From Halohasta salina (lineage in GTDB: Archaea; Halobacteriota; Halobacteria; Halobacteriales; Haloferacaceae): a DNA stretch of 64,000 nucleotides. The notes beneath the pieces are model-generated. The model did no database searches and had not been told where the DNA came from. It saw only the letters and a program-made list of their open reading frames with translations. The stretch lies in the NCBI RefSeq assembly GCF_024178165.1, contig NZ_JAMZIE010000001.1, positions 434,001 through 498,000 of the forward strand. The letters are read 5' to 3'. This document shows positions 43,394-53,559 of this stretch, in pieces. Each line of letters begins with the position of its first letter. The stretch's first letter is position 1. The translations under genes and the position numbers were made by a program.

Positions 43394-44500
43394 ATGGTTG
43401 ATCCGTTGCTTATCGGCGGCATGCTCATCGCGGCGTTTGCCGGTGGGGTGATCGGAGCCGCGATCGGCGCGCTCCCGGCGTTCATCTTCACCGGAATCAT
43501 GGTCATCGCCGGCGAGGCCGCCAGAGTCGCTGGCATCGTTTCGCTCCCCGAGGGTGCGGGACTCGGGACGATGGGGATCACCGGACAGGTCGCCTTCGGA
43601 GCGTTTTTCGGCCCCCATATCGCCTTCGCCGGCGGCGCGGCCGCGAGTGCTTACGCCGCCAAACAGGGGTACATGGAGTCGGGGTTCGGCGGCGGATGGG
43701 GGTACCACGACGCCAAGAACATCCTGATCGCCTTCGGCGCGCGGACCGATGTCTTGGTCGTCGGTGGCCTGTTCGGCGTGCTCGGCTACGTCGTGTTCTA
43801 CCTGTCGAGTACCGTCGCCGCGCCGTGGGATCCGATCGCCATGGGGGTCGTCCTCTCGGCGCTCGCCCACCGGCTCGTCTTTGGCTACGATGCCATCGGT
43901 ACCGCCCGTGGCGACGGCCTCCTCGACCTCTCGCCGTTCGACCGCGACGAAATGTACGCGACTGATGGGACGGGCGGCGAGCCAGCCGAGCGACTGGCCG
44001 TCGAGCCGTGGCTGCCGTGGTTCCGGAGTTGGGGCGGCGTCGGGCTCGTCGGAGTCGCCTTCGGGATCCTCGGCGGCTTTACCTTCTGGGCGACCGGCAG
44101 CCCCTACCTCGCTTTCGGGATCAGTGCTGCCAGCCTCCTGTTTTTGAACCTCGGTATCGAGGAGGACTTCGGCGCGTTCCAGCTCAAGATCCCGGTCACC
44201 CATCACATCACGCTCCCGGCGTCGACCGCGCCGATGGCCTCCATCGGGATCGGGCTCGCGGAGGCCGACCCCGCCGTCGTCCAGGCGGAGTTACTGCTGC
44301 TCGAAGCGGTCGTCTTGGGAGCGATTTTCGGCTTGCTGGGCGCGCTGTTGGGCGAACTCGCCGAGCGGATCTTCTACGCCCATGGCGACACCCACTGGGA
44401 TCCGCCCGCCACGAGCATTGTCGCTACGACGTTCCTGATCGCCCTGTTGGCTATCGTCGGTGTGTTCCCGACTGCGGGGTGGGTGCCGGTTCCGATCTGA
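43394..44500 (+). CDS. Polytopic membrane protein, function unknown
   Basis: A 368-residue protein with about nine predicted membrane helices. The N-terminal helices are glycine- and alanine-rich (IGGMLIAAFAGGVIGAAIG). A distinctive loop ALRHRLVFGYD and a conserved-looking segment GIEEDFGAFQLKIPVTHHITLPAS (about residue 252) suggest a defined site rather than a plain anchor. I do not recognise the family; a transporter is likely. It converges with the redoxin gene. Confidence 0.7.
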   Translation: MVDPLLIGGMLIAAFAGGVIGAAIGALPAFIFTGIMVIAGEAARVAGIVSLPEGAGLGTMGITGQVAFGAFFGPHIAFAGGAAASAYAAKQGYMESGFGGGWGYHDAKNILIAFGARTDVLVVGGLFGVLGYVVFYLSSTVAAPWDPIAMGVVLSALAHRLVFGYDAIGTARGDGLLDLSPFDRDEMYATDGTGGEPAERLAVEPWLPWFRSWGGVGLVGVAFGILGGFTFWATGSPYLAFGISAASLLFLNLGIEEDFGAFQLKIPVTHHITLPASTAPMASIGIGLAEADPAVVQAELLLLEAVVLGAIFGLLGALLGELAERIFYAHGDTHWDPPATSIVATTFLIALLAIVGVFPTAGWVPVPI

Positions 44501-46002: not shown

Positions 46003-47511
46003 ATGACATCGATCATACCAAATCAAAAACCAGTCATCCGTGTATCGGAGTCCGGATTCCGTCGGAGCGTTCCGGAACGTGGTGCCGACCAAGGCGTGAC
46101 TGTCACAGCAGTCGGGTCGACGGGCCTCCCGGCGGTCGAGCCACTGGTGACGGTGACGCAGGCGGGCGAGACGGCGTTGTACACCCAGTGTTCGCCCGCC
46201 GATGTCGAGGCGATCATCGACGCACTCGAAGCTGCCGGTGGGGATGTGGATGATGCTGCCGACCGGGCGAAAAAAACGCCGGAGGCTGTCGTCGACCACG
46301 AGCCGACCGCCACTCGACTCCCCACCGCAGGGGTTCCGGGACTCGATACGAGGGCTCGAAGCGTTCTCGGTGGGTGTGGATGGCGTCGACCAACGAACCC
46401 CGCGGACTACGAAGCCGCCGCCGGGTTCGAACCGCCCGATCCGGAGGCGGTCCTCGAACTCGGCGCGTCCCTCCGCGGCCGCGGCTGGGGTGATCTGTGT
46501 CACGACGCGCCGCTCGCCGAGACGTGGGAGACCGTCCGCGGGGCCGCTGGCAGCCCGGTCGTCGTCGTCAACGGCCACGGCACCACCGCCGACACCCTCC
46601 TGTTGGAGAGCGCCCCCTTCGAGGTGCTCGACGGGGCCGTTGCTCTCGCCCGCACAGTTGAGGCCGACAGCGTCATCGTCTATGCGTCTGCGGCGGACGA
46701 CCGCGCCGTCGACACGGTGCGTGAAGCCGCCGCGAACTATCCGGAGCTCCCGGTCGGCGTCGACGTAGTCACCGGCCCCCCGGAGTACCGCGCCGCCGAA
46801 CCGACGATGGCGCTCGAAGCGATCGAGGGCAACCACCGACTGGAGGCTCGGCTCCGCCCGCCAGGGCCCGAGGAAGTCGGCCTTCACGGCCAGCCAACGC
46901 TCATCCACACACCCCGAACCCTCGCGCACCTCGCCGTTGGACTCCGTGAGGGGGAGCTTCCGGGGACCCGGCTGCTGACTGTCACGGGTGATGTCGACGC
47001 CACAGCGACAGTCGAACTGCCCGCGGACGACACCCTCGCGGATGGGCTCGACGCTGTCGACCTGAACGGCCGCTTCAAGGCCGCCCGCGTCGGCGGGCGG
47101 TTCGGCGGGCTGACGAGCGATCTCGATGTGGCCGTCGATCCAGAGTCGTTGGCGGCCGCCGATCTCGGCACCGAGGGGTCGGTTCACGTCCTCGCCGAGG
47201 ACCGGTGTCTCGTCGAGTTCGTCGGCAAAACGGCCACCTTCGCGGCCGAAGAGAACTGTGGACGGTGCGTGCCTTGTCGGGAGGGAACCACACAGCTCGC
47301 GGGGCTCCTCCGAGACATCTACGACGGGAGCTATGCGCCCGAGAAGATCGACGAGTTGGTTCGCGTGATGTCGACATCGAGCATCTGCGAGTTCGGCGTC
47401 CAAGCCGGTCGACCGGTCCGAACCGCACTCAGCGAGTTCGAAGCGGAGTTCGAGGCCCACGCCGACGGCCACTGTCCGGCCGGCAGCTGTCTCGATCCAC
47501 TGGAGGCCTAA
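46003..47511 (+). CDS. NuoF/HoxF-like iron-sulfur subunit, degenerate flavin and NADH site
   Basis: A 502-residue relative of the 51-kDa complex I subunit. The C-terminal 4Fe-4S domain is intact: ENCGRCVPCREGTTQL (about residue 423) and SSICEFG. The rest follows the family layout but key sites are lost: the FMN loop GRGGAGFPTG is GRGWGDLCHD (about 162), NADE(G/M)EPG is VNGHGTTAD, GAYICGEETAL is PPEYRAAEPTMAL, and the N-terminal 2Fe-2S region GCxGxCxxEP is STGLPAVEP. Electrons must therefore reach a non-NAD partner. The gene starts the operon with a TATA element (GTTTATAACG) at about 45959-45968. Confidence 0.85.
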   Translation: MTSIIPNQKPVIRVSESGFRRSVPERGADQGVTVTAVGSTGLPAVEPLVTVTQAGETALYTQCSPADVEAIIDALEAAGGDVDDAADRAKKTPEAVVDHEPTATRLPTAGVPGLDTRARSVLGGCGWRRPTNPADYEAAAGFEPPDPEAVLELGASLRGRGWGDLCHDAPLAETWETVRGAAGSPVVVVNGHGTTADTLLLESAPFEVLDGAVALARTVEADSVIVYASAADDRAVDTVREAAANYPELPVGVDVVTGPPEYRAAEPTMALEAIEGNHRLEARLRPPGPEEVGLHGQPTLIHTPRTLAHLAVGLREGELPGTRLLTVTGDVDATATVELPADDTLADGLDAVDLNGRFKAARVGGRFGGLTSDLDVAVDPESLAAADLGTEGSVHVLAEDRCLVEFVGKTATFAAEENCGRCVPCREGTTQLAGLLRDIYDGSYAPEKIDELVRVMSTSSICEFGVQAGRPVRTALSEFEAEFEAHADGHCPAGSCLDPLEA

Positions 47512-47514
47512 CCC

Positions 47515-48468
47515 ATGAGTTCAGACCAACAACAGGCGGAGATTCCGCCACTGACCGAAGGCATCGCCCCCGGAACAGCAACCGATCCACCAGTCGGGAG
47601 CGAGGCGGCTGCGACAGTGACCGTCGACGGAACCGAAGTCGCTCTCGACGCCGGGTCGACGCTGCTCGACGCACTCGACCGGATCGAGACCGACGACTAC
47701 GTCCCTGCGCTCTGCCACTACGGCCGACAAGAGATCGGTCCCCGAAGCGAGTGTCGCACCTGTATGGTCGACACCGAGGAGTACGGCATCGTCCCGGCCT
47801 GTAGCTTCCCGGCCCGAGACGGGATGACGGTCCGAACCGCCGCCCGCGAGGCCGCGGAGGCACGCGACGTGAACCTCGATCTCGTCCTCTCGGACCACAA
47901 CCTCCGGTGTACGACCTGCGGGAAAAACGGGCGCTGTGAACTGCAGGACGCCTCGATCGAAAACGAGGTCGAAGAACCCCGATACGGCGTCCTCGACGAC
48001 CGCGACGAGTACGAACCGCTCGACGACTCCTCACCCTTCATCCAGATCGACCGCAACAAGTGTATCCTCTGTAACCGGTGTGTCGAGTCCTGCAACGACG
48101 TGCAGGTCGAGGGCGTCCTCCGGATCGAAGGCACCGGGAAGGACACCCGGATCGGCTTCCAGAACGGGGCCGAAACGATGGACGAGTCGACCTGTGTCTC
48201 CTGTGGTCACTGTGTGACCGTCTGTCCGACCGGCGCGCTCGTCGAGAAGGGCATCGAGGACGCCACGACGATCCCGCTTCCCGGATTCACCCAGAAGAAC
48301 AGCATCGGCAAAACCTACGAGCACAGCACACAGGCCAAAGCTCCGATGACACCGAAAAAGCAAGACGAACAGACAGAAACAGTCGACAGCGAGAGCCGAA
48401 CCACGGACAGCGAGACAGTCGACGTGGACGTGTGGGACGACGCCTCCGGTGGGGGTGAGTGGCCATGA
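47515..48468 (+). CDS. NuoG/HoxU-like 2Fe-2S and 4Fe-4S protein
   Basis: A 317-residue electron-transfer protein resembling the N-terminal module of NuoG and HoxU. After a 35-residue lead it has a 2Fe-2S site LCHYGRQEIGPRSECRTCM with a later PAC (residues about 64-98), a HxxxCxxC...C site in DHNLRCTTCGKNGRCELQ (about residue 127), and two ferredoxin clusters CILCNRCVESCNDV and CVSCGHCVTVCPTGAL. The C-terminal tail of about 55 residues is polar. The stop overlaps the start of the molybdoenzyme gene by four bases (ATGA), so the two are translated together. Confidence 0.92.
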   Translation: MSSDQQQAEIPPLTEGIAPGTATDPPVGSEAAATVTVDGTEVALDAGSTLLDALDRIETDDYVPALCHYGRQEIGPRSECRTCMVDTEEYGIVPACSFPARDGMTVRTAAREAAEARDVNLDLVLSDHNLRCTTCGKNGRCELQDASIENEVEEPRYGVLDDRDEYEPLDDSSPFIQIDRNKCILCNRCVESCNDVQVEGVLRIEGTGKDTRIGFQNGAETMDESTCVSCGHCVTVCPTGALVEKGIEDATTIPLPGFTQKNSIGKTYEHSTQAKAPMTPKKQDEQTETVDSESRTTDSETVDVDVWDDASGGGEWP

Positions 48469-50825
48469 CCGACCGCGAGTCGACCGACGACCAGCTGGAC
48501 GGCGTCGCGGGCTACATGCAGCGGGCCAAACAGCAGGCCCTCAAAAACGTCGAACAGGTCTCGGAGGGCGTGGCCGCCGACACGCTCTCGGAGGGCAAAC
48601 TGTTCGAGATCGCCCAGTCGATCGGCGACAAGCGCCTCGAAGAGTTGACCGTCCAGGACACGACCTGCGGCTACTGTGCGGTCGGCTGCCGGTTCGACCT
48701 CTACTCCGACGGCGAGGAGATCCTCGCGGCCCGACCGACCGCCGAAGAGGACGCCCCGGTCAACGGGATTTCGACCTGCGTCAAGGGGAAGTTCGGCTAC
48801 GACTTCGTCAACTCCGACGACCGACTGACCAGCCCGCTGGTCCGCGACGAGAACGGCGAGTTCCGCGAAGCGACGTGGAACGAAGCGTACTCACGCGTCG
48901 TTGAGGGGCTCGAAGCCGTCCGCGAGGACCACGGTGCCGACGCCCTCTCGCTAATCGCCTCCTCGAAGGCAACGAACGAAGAGAACTACCTGATGGGCAA
49001 GTTCGCCCGGCAAGTGCTGGGCACCAACAGCGTCGACAACTGCAACCGGCTCTGTCACTCCTCTACGGTTGCCGGCCTCGCCCAATCGTACGGCTACGGC
49101 GCAGCGTCGATCAGCACCGGGGATCTCGAAATAGCGGACTGCATCCTCCTGACGGGGTCGAACACGACCGAAGCCCACCCGGTGCTGGCCACACGTATCA
49201 AACAGAACGTCCGCGAGGGGGCCGATCTGCTGGTCTTCGACCCACGAGAGGTCCAGATCGCCGAGTATGCGACCCAGTACAGTCAGATCAATCCGGGATA
49301 CGACGCGGTCTGGATCAACGGGCTCATCCGCCACATCATCAACAACGACCTCTACGACGAGGAGTTCGTCAGCCAGCGGGTCACTGGCTACGAGCCCGAA
49401 ACGGCCCCCGACCACGACGCGGCCGACGACCGCGAGGAGCGCGTCGACAAGCGGGAGACCGGATTTGAGGCCGTCAGGGAGTCGGTCCAGGAGTTCACGC
49501 CCGAAGTCGTCGAGGAAGTCACGGGCGTCCCCCATGAGGAGATCGTCTCGGCGGCCGAGACGATTGTGGCGGCCGATGCCTGCGTCTTCGGCTGGACGCT
49601 CGGGCTGACCGAACACTCCCACGGCACCGAAAACGTGCTGGCGATGGCGAACCTCGCGGCGATCACCGGCAATCTCGGCAAGCCCGGCGCGGGCGTCTCG
49701 CCGTTCCGCGGCCAGAACAACGTCCAGGGTGGCGGCGGCGACATGGGGCCGCTGCCCGACAACTTCCCGGGATACCAGGACATCGCCGATGACGAACTCC
49801 GAGCGAAATTCGAAGACGCCTGGGACTGCGAGATCTCCCCTGAGTACGGCTACTACACGACCCAGATGTTCCTCGCAGCCGACCGGGGCGACATCCGCGG
49901 GATGTACATCATCGGCGAGAACGCGGCGCTGTCGGAACCCGGCGTTAATCACGCCGAGCGGGTGCTGGCAGATCTGGATTTCCTCGTCGTCCAGGACCTC
50001 TTCGTCAACGAGACGGCCCAGTATGCCGATGTCGTCCTGCCGGCGTGCAGTTTCGTCGAGAAGACGGGGACGTTCACCAACACCGACCGCACCGTCCAGA
50101 TGGTCAAGCAGGTCATGGAGCCGAAAGGCGATTCGCGGCCCGATTGGGAGATCCTCCAGGACCTCGCCAACAGAATGGACTGGAACTGGGACTACGAGTC
50201 GACGGCCGAAGTCATGGAGGAAGTGAACTCGGTGACGCCGATCTACGGCGGGATGACCCACGAGCGGATCGAGGCCGAAGGCGGCCTCCAGTGGCCCTGC
50301 TGGGACGACGACCACCCCGGCACCAAACGCCTCTACGAGGACGAGTTCAACACGGACAACGGGAAGGCGAACCTCCAGGCGGTCGGCTACAGCGAACCCG
50401 CCGAGACACCCACCGAGGAGTACCCGCTGTCGCTGACGACGGGCCGGGTGCTCTACCAGTACCACACGGGGACGATGACCCACCGCGAGGCGGGGATCAT
50501 GCAGTACACGCCCAGTGACTTCGTCGAGATCCATCCCGAGACGGCCGCCGAGTTCGACATCGAGGACGGCGACCGAGTCAGCGTGGAATCGCGCCGCGGC
50601 GAGATCGTCGTCCCAGCGCAGGTGACGGATCGGATCGGCACCGAGACGGTCTTCATCCCGATCCACTTCGCCGAGAGCGCGGTCAACCGGCTGACCGACG
50701 AGGAGCATCTCGACCCCATCGCGGCGACCCCGGAGTACAAGATGACGGCCGTGCGCATCAGCCCGGTCGACGGCCCGGCCGAATCGATCGATGCTGCCGA
50801 CCTCGAAGCCGCGGGGGATGACTGA
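48465..50825 (+). CDS. fdhF: Formate dehydrogenase-type molybdopterin oxidoreductase, alpha subunit
   Basis: A 786-residue molybdopterin-guanine-dinucleotide enzyme of the FDH/FdhF type. The N-terminal 4Fe-4S domain has TTCGYCAVGCRF (about residue 64) and the later STCVKGKFG; the catalytic Mo ligand is Cys in CNRLCHSSTVAGL (about residue 193), and the Cys-His pair is typical of formate dehydrogenases, where Sec or Cys is used. The C-terminal dinucleotide-binding domain begins YPLSLTTGRVLYQYHTG (about 650). It should oxidise formate or a related substrate. The gene starts four bases inside the iron-sulfur subunit gene. Confidence 0.93.
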   Translation: MTDRESTDDQLDGVAGYMQRAKQQALKNVEQVSEGVAADTLSEGKLFEIAQSIGDKRLEELTVQDTTCGYCAVGCRFDLYSDGEEILAARPTAEEDAPVNGISTCVKGKFGYDFVNSDDRLTSPLVRDENGEFREATWNEAYSRVVEGLEAVREDHGADALSLIASSKATNEENYLMGKFARQVLGTNSVDNCNRLCHSSTVAGLAQSYGYGAASISTGDLEIADCILLTGSNTTEAHPVLATRIKQNVREGADLLVFDPREVQIAEYATQYSQINPGYDAVWINGLIRHIINNDLYDEEFVSQRVTGYEPETAPDHDAADDREERVDKRETGFEAVRESVQEFTPEVVEEVTGVPHEEIVSAAETIVAADACVFGWTLGLTEHSHGTENVLAMANLAAITGNLGKPGAGVSPFRGQNNVQGGGGDMGPLPDNFPGYQDIADDELRAKFEDAWDCEISPEYGYYTTQMFLAADRGDIRGMYIIGENAALSEPGVNHAERVLADLDFLVVQDLFVNETAQYADVVLPACSFVEKTGTFTNTDRTVQMVKQVMEPKGDSRPDWEILQDLANRMDWNWDYESTAEVMEEVNSVTPIYGGMTHERIEAEGGLQWPCWDDDHPGTKRLYEDEFNTDNGKANLQAVGYSEPAETPTEEYPLSLTTGRVLYQYHTGTMTHREAGIMQYTPSDFVEIHPETAAEFDIEDGDRVSVESRRGEIVVPAQVTDRIGTETVFIPIHFAESAVNRLTDEEHLDPIAATPEYKMTAVRISPVDGPAESIDAADLEAAGDD

Positions 50826-50827
50826 CC

Positions 50828-51583
50828 ATGGCCGAACCAACAGAGTCCGTCCCCGAGACAGCCACCAACCGCGCACGGAAGAACGGCGCTGACGGCGAGG
50901 GCGATGGACAGGCCGCAGTCGACGACGCACTGTCGGCGAACGCCGAGCGGCTCGCAGCCCTCATACACAGCAGCGACGAGGTCGAAGACGCGCTCGAAAC
51001 CGCGATCCTCGTGATCGCCAGCGCCGACGAAGAGGAACTCGACGAGATAACCGACTCGGCAGCGAACCTCGTCACCGCCGCCGACGGGCTCTCGACCGAC
51101 GGCGCGGCCATGCTGGCGACCGAGCTCGGCGAGAACGCCGACGAACTCTCGGCGTCACTCGATACGGTTGTCACCCTCCAGCAGGACGGCCATCTTGACG
51201 ACCTCGTCACCCTCGCTACGGCGTTCACCGACTCGTTGTCGGCCGACGAGATCGACCGACTGTCGACCGTGCTCGCCGAGCGCGGGCCGGAACTCGTCGC
51301 GGCTCTCGAAGCCGTCACTGAACTCCAGAAAAACGGTGAACTCGACGCGCTGCTCGAGACCGCAGTGACGCTCTCGGCGCTCGATGTCGACAGGGAGGCC
51401 GTACGAGGGCTGAACGACGTGCTCGGGGCGGTCGGCGAGGCCCGACGCGAGGCGGAGCCAGTCAGTCTTCAGGCGAGGCTCCGACAGCTCACGGGTCGGG
51501 ACGTGCGAGCCAGCCTCGGCTATCTCCTTGCAGTGCTACACGCACTGGGTCGTCGGCTCAGGGGCCGCCAAACGATCCCGTGA
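50828..51583 (+). CDS. DUF1641 protein, FDH-associated
   Basis: A 251-residue protein that is soluble, acidic and almost entirely helical (repeated segments such as LDTVVTLQQDGHLDDLVTLA and LEAVTELQKNGELDALLETA). It matches DUF1641, a family found next to FdhF-type dehydrogenases, for example the Bacillus subtilis YrhD/YjgD neighbours. An assembly or membrane-association role has been suggested but is not proven. It starts two bases after the fdhF stop, and its own stop overlaps the next gene (GTGA), so it is translated with both molybdoenzymes. Confidence 0.85.
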   Translation: MAEPTESVPETATNRARKNGADGEGDGQAAVDDALSANAERLAALIHSSDEVEDALETAILVIASADEEELDEITDSAANLVTAADGLSTDGAAMLATELGENADELSASLDTVVTLQQDGHLDDLVTLATAFTDSLSADEIDRLSTVLAERGPELVAALEAVTELQKNGELDALLETAVTLSALDVDREAVRGLNDVLGAVGEARREAEPVSLQARLRQLTGRDVRASLGYLLAVLHALGRRLRGRQTIP

Positions 51584-53559
51584 CCGACCACCACCCGACG
51601 CCATCGGTCTGTCCGCTCTGTGCGGTCGGCTGCCGACTCGTTCCTGGCGAGGAGGGCCGCGCTCGCGGTGCGGCTGGTCCCGCGAATCCCAACGGCCGGC
51701 TCTGCCGGAAGGGGGTCGACGCCTACCAGCTCGGCGGCGACGATCGGCTCACCGAGCCGCAGGTCCGACGGGACAGCGACCTGACGGTCGTCGCTTGGGA
51801 GACTGCCTACGAGCGTATCGTCGAGGGAATCCAGGACGTCATCGAGACACACGGCCCGAACGCGCTCGCCTTCCTCGGGGCTCCACACTGTTCGAACGAG
51901 GAGAGCTACCTCCTCCAGAAACTCGCCCGGACGCTGGGGACGAACAACGTCGACAACCGCGCCCGACTCTGCCATTCCTCGTCGGCACGAGCCCTCTCCG
52001 AGCAGGTCGGCTGGCCGGCGACGACCGGGAGCTTGGACGCCCTCAACGACGCCGACGTGCTCGTCGTTGCGGGAGCGAACCCGGCCGAACGCCAGCCGAT
52101 CGCATTCAATAGTTTCGTCCGCCCAGCGGTCACCCACGGCACGACGCTCGTCCACGTCGCCCCGGTCGGCAACCGGACGACGCGGCTGGCCGACCACCAC
52201 GTGGCCCCGCGGCCGGGGACCGACGCCCTCGTGTTCGACCTCCTGAGTGCGGCCCTGATCGAAGACGGGAACGTCGACCACGAGTTTATACGCGAACGGA
52301 CACGCGGCTACGACGCCTTCGCGGCGTCGCTCGCCGGGATGGATCGAGATCGTGTGATGGCGAGGGCTGGCGTCGACCCCGAGACGATCCGACAGTTGGT
52401 CGGCCGTCTCACCGGGGCCGACCGTGTCGCCGCGCTCGTCGGGACCGGGATCGAAGGCGACGTCGACGACCCGAACGCGGCCGAGGCGCTGATCGATCTC
52501 CTGTTACTAACCGGGAACGTTGGCCACCGAGGCACCGGTCTGTACGTGCTCCGTGGGCTCGTCAACGAACAGGGAGCGACCGACGCTGGCTGCGTGCCCG
52601 ATCGCCTCCCGGGCCACCAGCCGGTGACCGACGGAACGGCGCGAACGCGGGTCGCCGAAGTGTGGGGTATCGAACCGCCCGCCGCTCCGGGCATGAACGC
52701 CAGCGAACTGCTGGCGGCGTTCGGCGAGGAGATCCGTGGTGCGGTCATCGTCGGTGAGAACCCCGCGATCTCGAAACGTGATTCGGCGTGGATTCGCCGC
52801 CGACTCGCCGCCCTCGATCTCCTCGTTGTCCTGGACATCTCCCCGAGTGAGACAACTCGACACGCGGACGTCGTACTTCCTGTCGCCGCGGGTGTCGAGA
52901 CGGAGGGGACGTTCACGAACCTCGAACGCCGGATCCAGCTATCACGACCGACCCGCGAACCGCCGGAGACGGTTCGCGCCGATTTCGATGTGCTGCGGGA
53001 GGTGGGTTGTCGATTGTTCACAGACCGAGACTGGTTCGACTACACCGATGTCGGTGAGGTGTTCGACGAACTGACGCGGGTCGCACCCACCCACGAGGGG
53101 ATCACGTACGATGACATCGGACCGGAGGGACGGCAGTGGCCGGGCGAGACTGATAGCACGCTCTACACCGAGTCGTTCGACACGCCGGACGGACGGGCGG
53201 CGTTCGGCAGGGCTCAGTACGACACCGAGACGGGAGACAGCACTGTCGACCCAGAGACCGAGGGCCAACTGCGGTTGGTGACCGGCGGCCGAGCGAGCGA
53301 GTGGCCTGCCGACCGGACCGCGTCCGACCACCCGTTGCGGATGCACCCCGCCGATGCGAGCGATCGACGTGTCGCGTCGACCGACGAGGTTGTCGTCTCG
53401 AACGGGTCGGTCGCCATCGAAACGACGGTCGAAATAACTGACCGTATCCGGCAGGGCACGGTCTCCCTCCCGGCCGGGGTCGCCGATCCGTTGCTCCGAT
53501 GTGAGGCGTCGACTGTGCGTATCCGGCCACCATCGGAGTACCAGGAAACGGATCCCTGA
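51580..53559 (+). CDS. Second FdhF-like molybdopterin oxidoreductase
   Basis: A 659-residue molybdopterin enzyme that is a shorter, diverged relative of the first. It keeps the N-terminal iron-sulfur site SVCPLCAVGCRL and LCRKGVDAY, the Mo ligand in RARLCHSSSARALSEQ (about residue 130) with the Cys-His pair, and an MGD-binding domain beginning QLRLVTGGRASEWP near residue 564. It is about 120 residues shorter than the first subunit and is more diverged around the dinucleotide site. It starts at a GTG overlapping the DUF1641 stop. It could be a second catalytic subunit or a structural relic of duplication. Confidence 0.85.
   Translation: MTDHHPTPSVCPLCAVGCRLVPGEEGRARGAAGPANPNGRLCRKGVDAYQLGGDDRLTEPQVRRDSDLTVVAWETAYERIVEGIQDVIETHGPNALAFLGAPHCSNEESYLLQKLARTLGTNNVDNRARLCHSSSARALSEQVGWPATTGSLDALNDADVLVVAGANPAERQPIAFNSFVRPAVTHGTTLVHVAPVGNRTTRLADHHVAPRPGTDALVFDLLSAALIEDGNVDHEFIRERTRGYDAFAASLAGMDRDRVMARAGVDPETIRQLVGRLTGADRVAALVGTGIEGDVDDPNAAEALIDLLLLTGNVGHRGTGLYVLRGLVNEQGATDAGCVPDRLPGHQPVTDGTARTRVAEVWGIEPPAAPGMNASELLAAFGEEIRGAVIVGENPAISKRDSAWIRRRLAALDLLVVLDISPSETTRHADVVLPVAAGVETEGTFTNLERRIQLSRPTREPPETVRADFDVLREVGCRLFTDRDWFDYTDVGEVFDELTRVAPTHEGITYDDIGPEGRQWPGETDSTLYTESFDTPDGRAAFGRAQYDTETGDSTVDPETEGQLRLVTGGRASEWPADRTASDHPLRMHPADASDRRVASTDEVVVSNGSVAIETTVEITDRIRQGTVSLPAGVADPLLRCEASTVRIRPPSEYQETDP

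Follow-up and report, generated by a model that had tools for sequence, protein, structure and literature searches.

The NAD-dependent formate dehydrogenase FdsABG(D), with structures from Rhodobacter capsulatus (6tg9) and Cupriavidus necator (6vw7), contains in FdsB a fused NuoE-NuoF subunit that pairs with an FdhA bearing a NuoG N-terminal (NuoG-N) domain. HydB and NfnB are NADH subunits of bifurcating hydrogenases and transhydrogenases (7t2r, 7p5h, 9n5u). In Bacillus subtilis, ForC is a formate dehydrogenase (FDH) with a NuoG-N-type wire, and ForE, a member of the DUF1641 family, is essential for the formate:menadione activity of ForC and for menaquinone binding (PMC8808070). The ForCE structure (YjgC/YjgD; 8RQZ) is reviewed in PMC13397495; the complex has no NuoF-like subunit, and its active site reads CQ/RGH. 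Haloarchaea use menaquinone and have a complex I without NuoEFG (PMC8305020), and formate use by haloarchaea was first reported in 2017, for anaerobes (PMC5437934).

Canonical NuoF-like proteins (L049-L053) occur in the same archaeal order as the locus studied here; all their motifs are intact, and their genes adjoin NiFe hydrogenase-type genes and not FdhA. They carry C-terminal ferredoxin domains and are encoded with NuoG-like genes. At L049, which was checked, the hydrogenase gene encodes a VhuA-like large subunit.

A five-gene operon in Halohasta salina

The window, a stretch of 64,000 nucleotides from Halohasta salina, carries a real and conserved open reading frame with an ATG start (protein P0001), which is single copy in this genome and is the first of five densely packed genes with gaps of at most 3 bases and two overlapping pairs:

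46003-47511, forward strand: flavin-less NuoE-NuoF fusion (FdsB-like) subunit, 502 aa
47515-48468, forward strand: NuoG N-terminal-like wire subunit; 2Fe-2S, HCCC 4Fe-4S and two 4Fe-4S, every ligand present
48459-50825, forward strand: predicted FdhA, Mo/W-bis-PGD catalytic subunit; motif CH...RGQ; TIGR01591 807 bits (cut-off 666)
50828-51583, forward strand: DUF1641 protein, putative ForE-like quinone/membrane-coupling subunit
51580-53559, forward strand: second FdhA paralogue, shorter and under the FDH cut-off; CH retained, RGQ changed to RGL

Halohasta litorea (L031) has the identical gene order and the closest fetched relative of the NuoF-like protein (76% identity). The dN/dS between the two copies is about 0.12-0.18 (0.14/0.77 by NG86, 0.13/1.08 by YN00), and the gene is under purifying selection and not decaying; this ratio and the clade-wide conservation of the loss described below rule out a pseudogene. 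Upstream of the operon, 43394-44500 encodes a 368-aa protein that is predicted to lie in the membrane and has no Pfam match.

The NuoF-like protein resembles FdsB in its fused NuoE-NuoF fold, its length, its N3 ligands and its pairing with a NuoG-N-bearing FdhA, but it lacks the 2Fe-2S cluster, the FMN and the NADH site, and its operon has no FdsG-type gene. HydB and NfnB are its top matches in sequence and fold and have the C-terminal CPxGxC in common with it, whereas their FMN site, 2Fe-2S cluster and C-terminal ferredoxin domain are missing from the haloarchaeal protein. The canonical L049-L053 proteins are about 30% identical to it. ForCE is like the operon in combining an FdhA and its NuoG-N wire with a DUF1641 protein, and the best solved match of the window FdhA is ForC1 (619.7 bits; F420-FDH 570, FdsA 521-537). 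In contrast to ForCE, the haloarchaeal system has a split NuoG-N, an extra FdhA paralogue and a NuoF-like subunit, and its active site is CH/RGQ rather than the CQ/RGH of ForC; haloarchaeal FdhA proteins generally have CH with RGQ or RGH. The operon is predicted to encode a ForCE-like FDH that retains a cofactor-stripped NADH module.

In the second FdhA paralogue the 4Fe-4S motif and the Cys-His pair are intact, with RGL for RGQ in 24/24 copies; the protein may perhaps act on a different substrate or serve as a structural partner. A missing cysteine reported for it by a regular expression was an artefact.

Loss of the flavin, NADH and 2Fe-2S sites

Two Pfam models match the NuoF-like frame above their cut-offs, NADH_4Fe-4S with 77.7 bits and Complex1_51K, more weakly, with 39.4 bits, and the nuoF model TIGR01959 gives 107.9 bits, below its curated cut-off of 558.65. 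To read the motifs, 73 sequences were aligned, with six canonical members serving as the reference; the FMN and NADH site numbers used below follow Thermus Nqo1. The protein is laid out as follows:

46033-46296, forward strand: thioredoxin-like (NuoE-like) domain, residues ~11-98, no 2Fe-2S cysteine
46477-46494, forward strand: relict FMN glycine loop G159-R-G-W-G-D164 (canonical GRGGxG); D164 in 67/67
46570-46593, forward strand: relict of NADExxPGxxxD, N190-G-H-G-T-T-A-D197; four positions deleted in 24/24 type I members
46774-46869, forward strand: new conserved motif GPPEYRAAEPTMALEAIEGNHRLEARLRPPGP, residues 258-289, replacing GAYICGEE and the downstream stretch
46906-46920, forward strand: H302-T-P-R305-T306 replacing the FMN-binding NNxET; H302 and R305 invariant, 67/67
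47257-47277, forward strand: N3-type 4Fe-4S ligands C419, C422 and C425 (CGRCVPC)
47386-47388, forward strand: fourth N3 ligand, C462
47458-47490, forward strand: H486-x4-C491-x4-C496, with C402 (47206-47208) a conserved Cys3-His set

In the window protein, the FMN loop GRGGxGFPxGxKW has become GRGWGDLCHDAPLAETW, with G67 replaced by W162 and K75 by T174, and N219/N220 correspond to H302/T303. The motif N-x-D-E-x-[ED]-P-G is reduced to N190-G-H-G, the four following positions being deleted: H192 and G193 stand for D94 and E95, and E97 is gone with its neighbours. Types II and III (operon types defined below) retain more of this loop (N-x-N-[ED]) than type I. GAGA[YF]xCGEE reads GPPEYRAAEP, with A265 for G183, and the NADH positions F70, F78 and E185 are now L165, T177 and P267. 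Seven FMN-site residues are kept (G64, R65, G66, N92, Y180, E184 and T223), and three of the residues that replace the others, D164, H302 and R305, are invariant (67 of 67), with E272 and R283 nearly so.

The only cysteines of P0001 are 63, 125, 166, 402, 419, 422, 425, 462, 491 and 496, and all four NuoE-type 2Fe-2S cysteines are gone from the N-terminal domain. The N3 ligand set C-x2-C-x2-C...C is complete. The Cys3-His set is present in canonical members, in those with N3 and in those that have lost it (below); it may correspond to the structural zinc site that HydB-type proteins have.

The preliminary description of this DNA had reported an altered FMN loop, NADE motif and GAYICGEE motif, with loss of the flavin and NADH sites and a complete 4Fe-4S motif, and the alignment bears this out, the key residues being replaced or deleted clade-wide; it had put the altered N-terminal 2Fe-2S cysteines at two, where the loss is real but takes all four. 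Motifs that are shifted but present are ruled out by the alignment together with the high-confidence predicted fold. The AlphaFold model of P0001 (pLDDT 92.9, pTM 0.93) matches FdsB, HydB and NfnB over the full length, with TM-scores of 0.78/0.79 to FdsB (6tg9_B), and the protein is therefore not a misaligned one; as modelled, it is a full-length NuoE-NuoF fusion with an intact fold and lost sites. At the level of sequence, these data demonstrate that the fusion would no longer bind FMN or reduce NAD.

Distribution and origin of the flavin-less subunit

The order was represented by 293 genomes in 87 genera, and a NuoF-like relative is present in 127 of the genomes and 46 of the genera; this count takes in about a dozen canonical or fragmentary matches. 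In a tree of 84 sequences, a branch with support 100 separates all 78 motif-lost proteins from the six canonical ones. Other families of the phylum contain relatives with about 32% identity, and the three non-haloarchaeal ones with readable motifs (L122, L123 and L125) have canonical motifs. Because the motif-lost proteins form one supported clade and the outside relatives that could be read are canonical, flavin loss is, on this tree and within this sample, a trait of haloarchaea that arose once. A search of the open-licence literature gave no account of a flavin-less NuoF, and one may have appeared elsewhere.

Three operon types were distinguished. Type I, that of the window, comprises NuoF, a split NuoG-N, FdhA, DUF1641 and usually a second FdhA; type II has NuoF, a split NuoG-N, FdhA and small proteins without DUF1641; and type III, to which the enzyme of Haloarcula marismortui pNG700 belongs, has NuoF and a fused FdhA of ~1,110 aa. 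FdhA, with NuoG-N split or fused, adjoins the NuoF-like gene in almost all motif-lost loci examined, the exceptions being L047 and L048 and the loci L043, L059 and L106, where FdhA is disrupted, absent or beyond the end of the sequence. The NuoG-N ligands (2Fe-2S, HCCC and two 4Fe-4S) are present in every motif-lost locus aligned; a 2Fe-2S loss in types II and III suggested by a regular expression proved to be an indel artefact.

Loss of the N3 cluster in one clade

Thirteen type III sequences read NSGRCVPGREG instead of the usual NCGRCVPCREG and have thus lost two of the four N3 ligands. These sequences group in a single clade with support 99, embedded among sequences with N3, and share one origin; L085 has lost one N3 cysteine independently. 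No type I or II member has lost an N3 ligand, and nearly all type III members outside this clade likewise have the complete set. The N3-lost clade retains the protein, its new invariant residues, the C402/H486/C491/C496 set and an intact NuoG-N/FdhA wire.

Judged by its ligands, NuoF of this clade cannot hold a normal N3 cluster. With FMN absent as well, electrons must therefore exit elsewhere than NuoF, probably on NuoG-N and most simply near its 2Fe-2S cluster. The NuoF-side wire would be dispensable here, since N3 is lost while the NuoG-N/FdhA wire is intact, and the role of the retained protein would be structural, because it has no normal cofactor left. This clade is our strongest argument for NuoF as a structural subunit, at least within the clade, and the same role may be carried over to type I of the window.

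Immediately upstream of the NuoF-like gene and divergently oriented to it, 11 of the 13 N3-lost loci (L056, L058, L059, L061, L064, L065, L072, L076, L077, L078 and L105) have a gene for a ~95-aa protein, which was found in just one further locus of 76; the association is clade-linked and hence not independent evidence.

DUF1641 and the electron acceptor

In type I operons the DUF1641 gene adjoins FdhA. All 25 of 25 haloarchaeal DUF1641 proteins match PF07849; the window protein scores 20.9 bits, just below the cut-off of 21, and 24.2 bits in another search. A profile of these proteins weakly matched ForE1 (E 0.018), YjlC (0.09) and an 'NDH-2 membrane coupling protein' (0.18) in the PDB, all at one common C-terminal stretch; unrelated helical repeats score better, and the match taken alone proves little. 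A fold search with a low-confidence DUF1641 model (pTM 0.31) as query found nothing. In addition, the window genome has two further DUF1641 genes, each directly behind a type III sulfide:quinone-reductase-like gene:

L107, 3482-5081: sulfide:quinone-reductase-like gene and DUF1641 gene
L108, 3516-5319: sulfide:quinone-reductase-like gene and DUF1641 gene

By analogy, the common thread of the DUF1641 family would be the delivery of electrons from soluble dehydrogenases to a membrane quinone, which would tie these proteins to quinone coupling in archaea. Of 21 genomes that carry these enzymes, 10 have no DUF1641, which rules it out as a universal partner, and the acceptor in the other types must therefore be reached without it.

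The preliminary description had assigned the subunit to a formate-type dehydrogenase with a non-NAD acceptor, and both points stand: the predicted FdhA lies in the operon, and the FMN and NADH residues are lost across the clade. Its view that the wire kept in NuoF is the key to the acceptor is probably not right in that form, since 13 relatives have lost N3 with the NuoG-N/FdhA wire intact. Among the three acceptors it had suggested, ferredoxin, halocyanin and a membrane quinone protein, the last is best supported because the operon holds DUF1641, the family of ForE; for halocyanin, nothing speaks except that it is a known haloarchaeal carrier. The acceptor is most likely menaquinone, with ferredoxin reached through N3 as the main rival.

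We therefore lean, with somewhat better than even confidence, towards a ForCE-like formate:menaquinone oxidoreductase in which NuoF is kept as a structural cap. Built like B. subtilis ForCE, the enzyme would be cytoplasmic and membrane-associating. Formate would be oxidized at the Mo/W site of FdhA, and electrons would pass from the FdhA 4Fe-4S cluster through the NuoG-N clusters, whose ligands are all present, to the NuoG-N 2Fe-2S cluster. The DUF1641 protein, as suggested by ForE, would dock the complex to the membrane and form part of a menaquinone site at the NuoG-N end, which the NuoE-NuoF fusion, presumably inherited from an NAD-reducing ancestor, would now cap. N3 would be vestigial or auxiliary in type I, and NuoF of the N3-lost type would have no redox cofactor. 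Several observations count against this model, namely the DUF1641 absences, the CH/RGQ or CH/RGH site, the weak DUF1641 E-values, the low-confidence DUF1641 model with its empty fold search and the absence of FdhD (below), and the intact N3 of most members suggests a remaining redox role of NuoF.

That last point leads to a serious though unlikely account in which N3 is the electron exit. A one-electron carrier, for example the haloarchaeal 2Fe-2S ferredoxin, would dock where the surface above the former FMN pocket has been remodelled, and would then feed the NuoEFG-less complex I. The retention of the N3 ligands in types I and II and in nearly all type III members outside the N3-lost clade, the conserved charged residues E272, E281, R283 and R305, the many genomes that dispense with DUF1641 and the proposed re-oxidation of ferredoxin by the haloarchaeal Nuo complex (PMC8305020) are all consistent with it. 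However, the N3-lost clade lacks the cluster and nevertheless retains the protein with these conserved residues, and the operon contains no ferredoxin gene while its DUF1641 gene points to quinone.

Substrate and the absence of FdhD

The FdhA family and the active-site motif suggest that the substrate is formate. Near the operon of Haloarcula marismortui lie genes for a glutathione-independent formaldehyde dehydrogenase, creatininase and FolD, and near those of other relatives a formaldehyde-dehydrogenase-like ADH, MobA and YqeC. A monocarboxylate-type transporter near other operons has L-lactate MFS transporter as its best NCBIfam name, and the oxalate/formate antiporter models stay below their cut-offs.

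To our knowledge, the described FDHs require FdhD. In our searches FdhD was found in 0 of 392 Halobacteriales genomes, that of the window included (PF02634; TIGR00129 in 11 genomes), with 8 of 14 control genomes responding, and many FdhD-less haloarchaeal genomes carry FdhA with CH/RGQ. Either another factor performs the FdhD step or a divergent FdhD escapes the search.

This absence is the ground for a third reading, in which the metal site is incomplete and the complex is another molybdoenzyme or inactive. We consider this improbable: the 807 bits of FdhA lie well over the cut-off with CH/RGQ intact, C1 enzymes are among the neighbours at some loci, FdhD may be divergent or replaced, and at least one haloarchaeon, Halodesulfurarchaeum formicicum, oxidizes formate (PMC5437934).

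Fate of the flavin pocket

The old FMN pocket might instead have been rebuilt for another ligand, such as a quinone head group or a different cofactor, giving a new active site near N3. The seven retained FMN-loop residues and the invariant or nearly invariant D164, E272, R283, H302 and R305 agree with this, but wherever N3 has been lost a site of this kind would have no electrical connection, barring some other path, and the conserved charges could just as well form salt bridges, the protein being acidic and halophilic. A new active site appears quite doubtful. Continued binding of FMN and reduction of NAD by some unusual mechanism is extremely improbable, for although some FMN contacts are kept, the equivalents of K75, both NNxET asparagines, E97 and E185 are replaced or deleted and all 2Fe-2S cysteines are lost.

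Implications and minor observations

More broadly, we propose tentatively, and rather short of an even chance, that a complex I-type NADH module lost its redox functions stepwise, the 2Fe-2S and FMN/NADH sites before N3, and was kept as a non-redox protein whose flavin pocket was reshaped into either a conserved interface of a new kind or a site for a ligand. This would have happened in a class of FDH specific to haloarchaea whose maturation does not involve FdhD. How an FDH matures without FdhD is the question that this raises. The living intermediates, with all cofactors, with N3 only and with none, make it testable which parts of an NADH module serve electron exit and which assembly. Moreover, database names after the F subunit of NADH-ubiquinone oxidoreductase imply NAD-linked formate oxidation, which the sequences contradict for a large part of the sampled haloarchaea.

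L047 (2946-4496) and L048 (7771-9360) encode yet more divergent NuoF-like proteins, in which the motif EGNxRxEARxRPP is absent and for which no FdhA lies within the fetched flanks. In Haloterrigena turkmenica pHTUR01 (L121), the NuoF-like gene is annotated with a start far within the matching region, and the annotated protein is therefore without the N-terminal thioredoxin-like domain.
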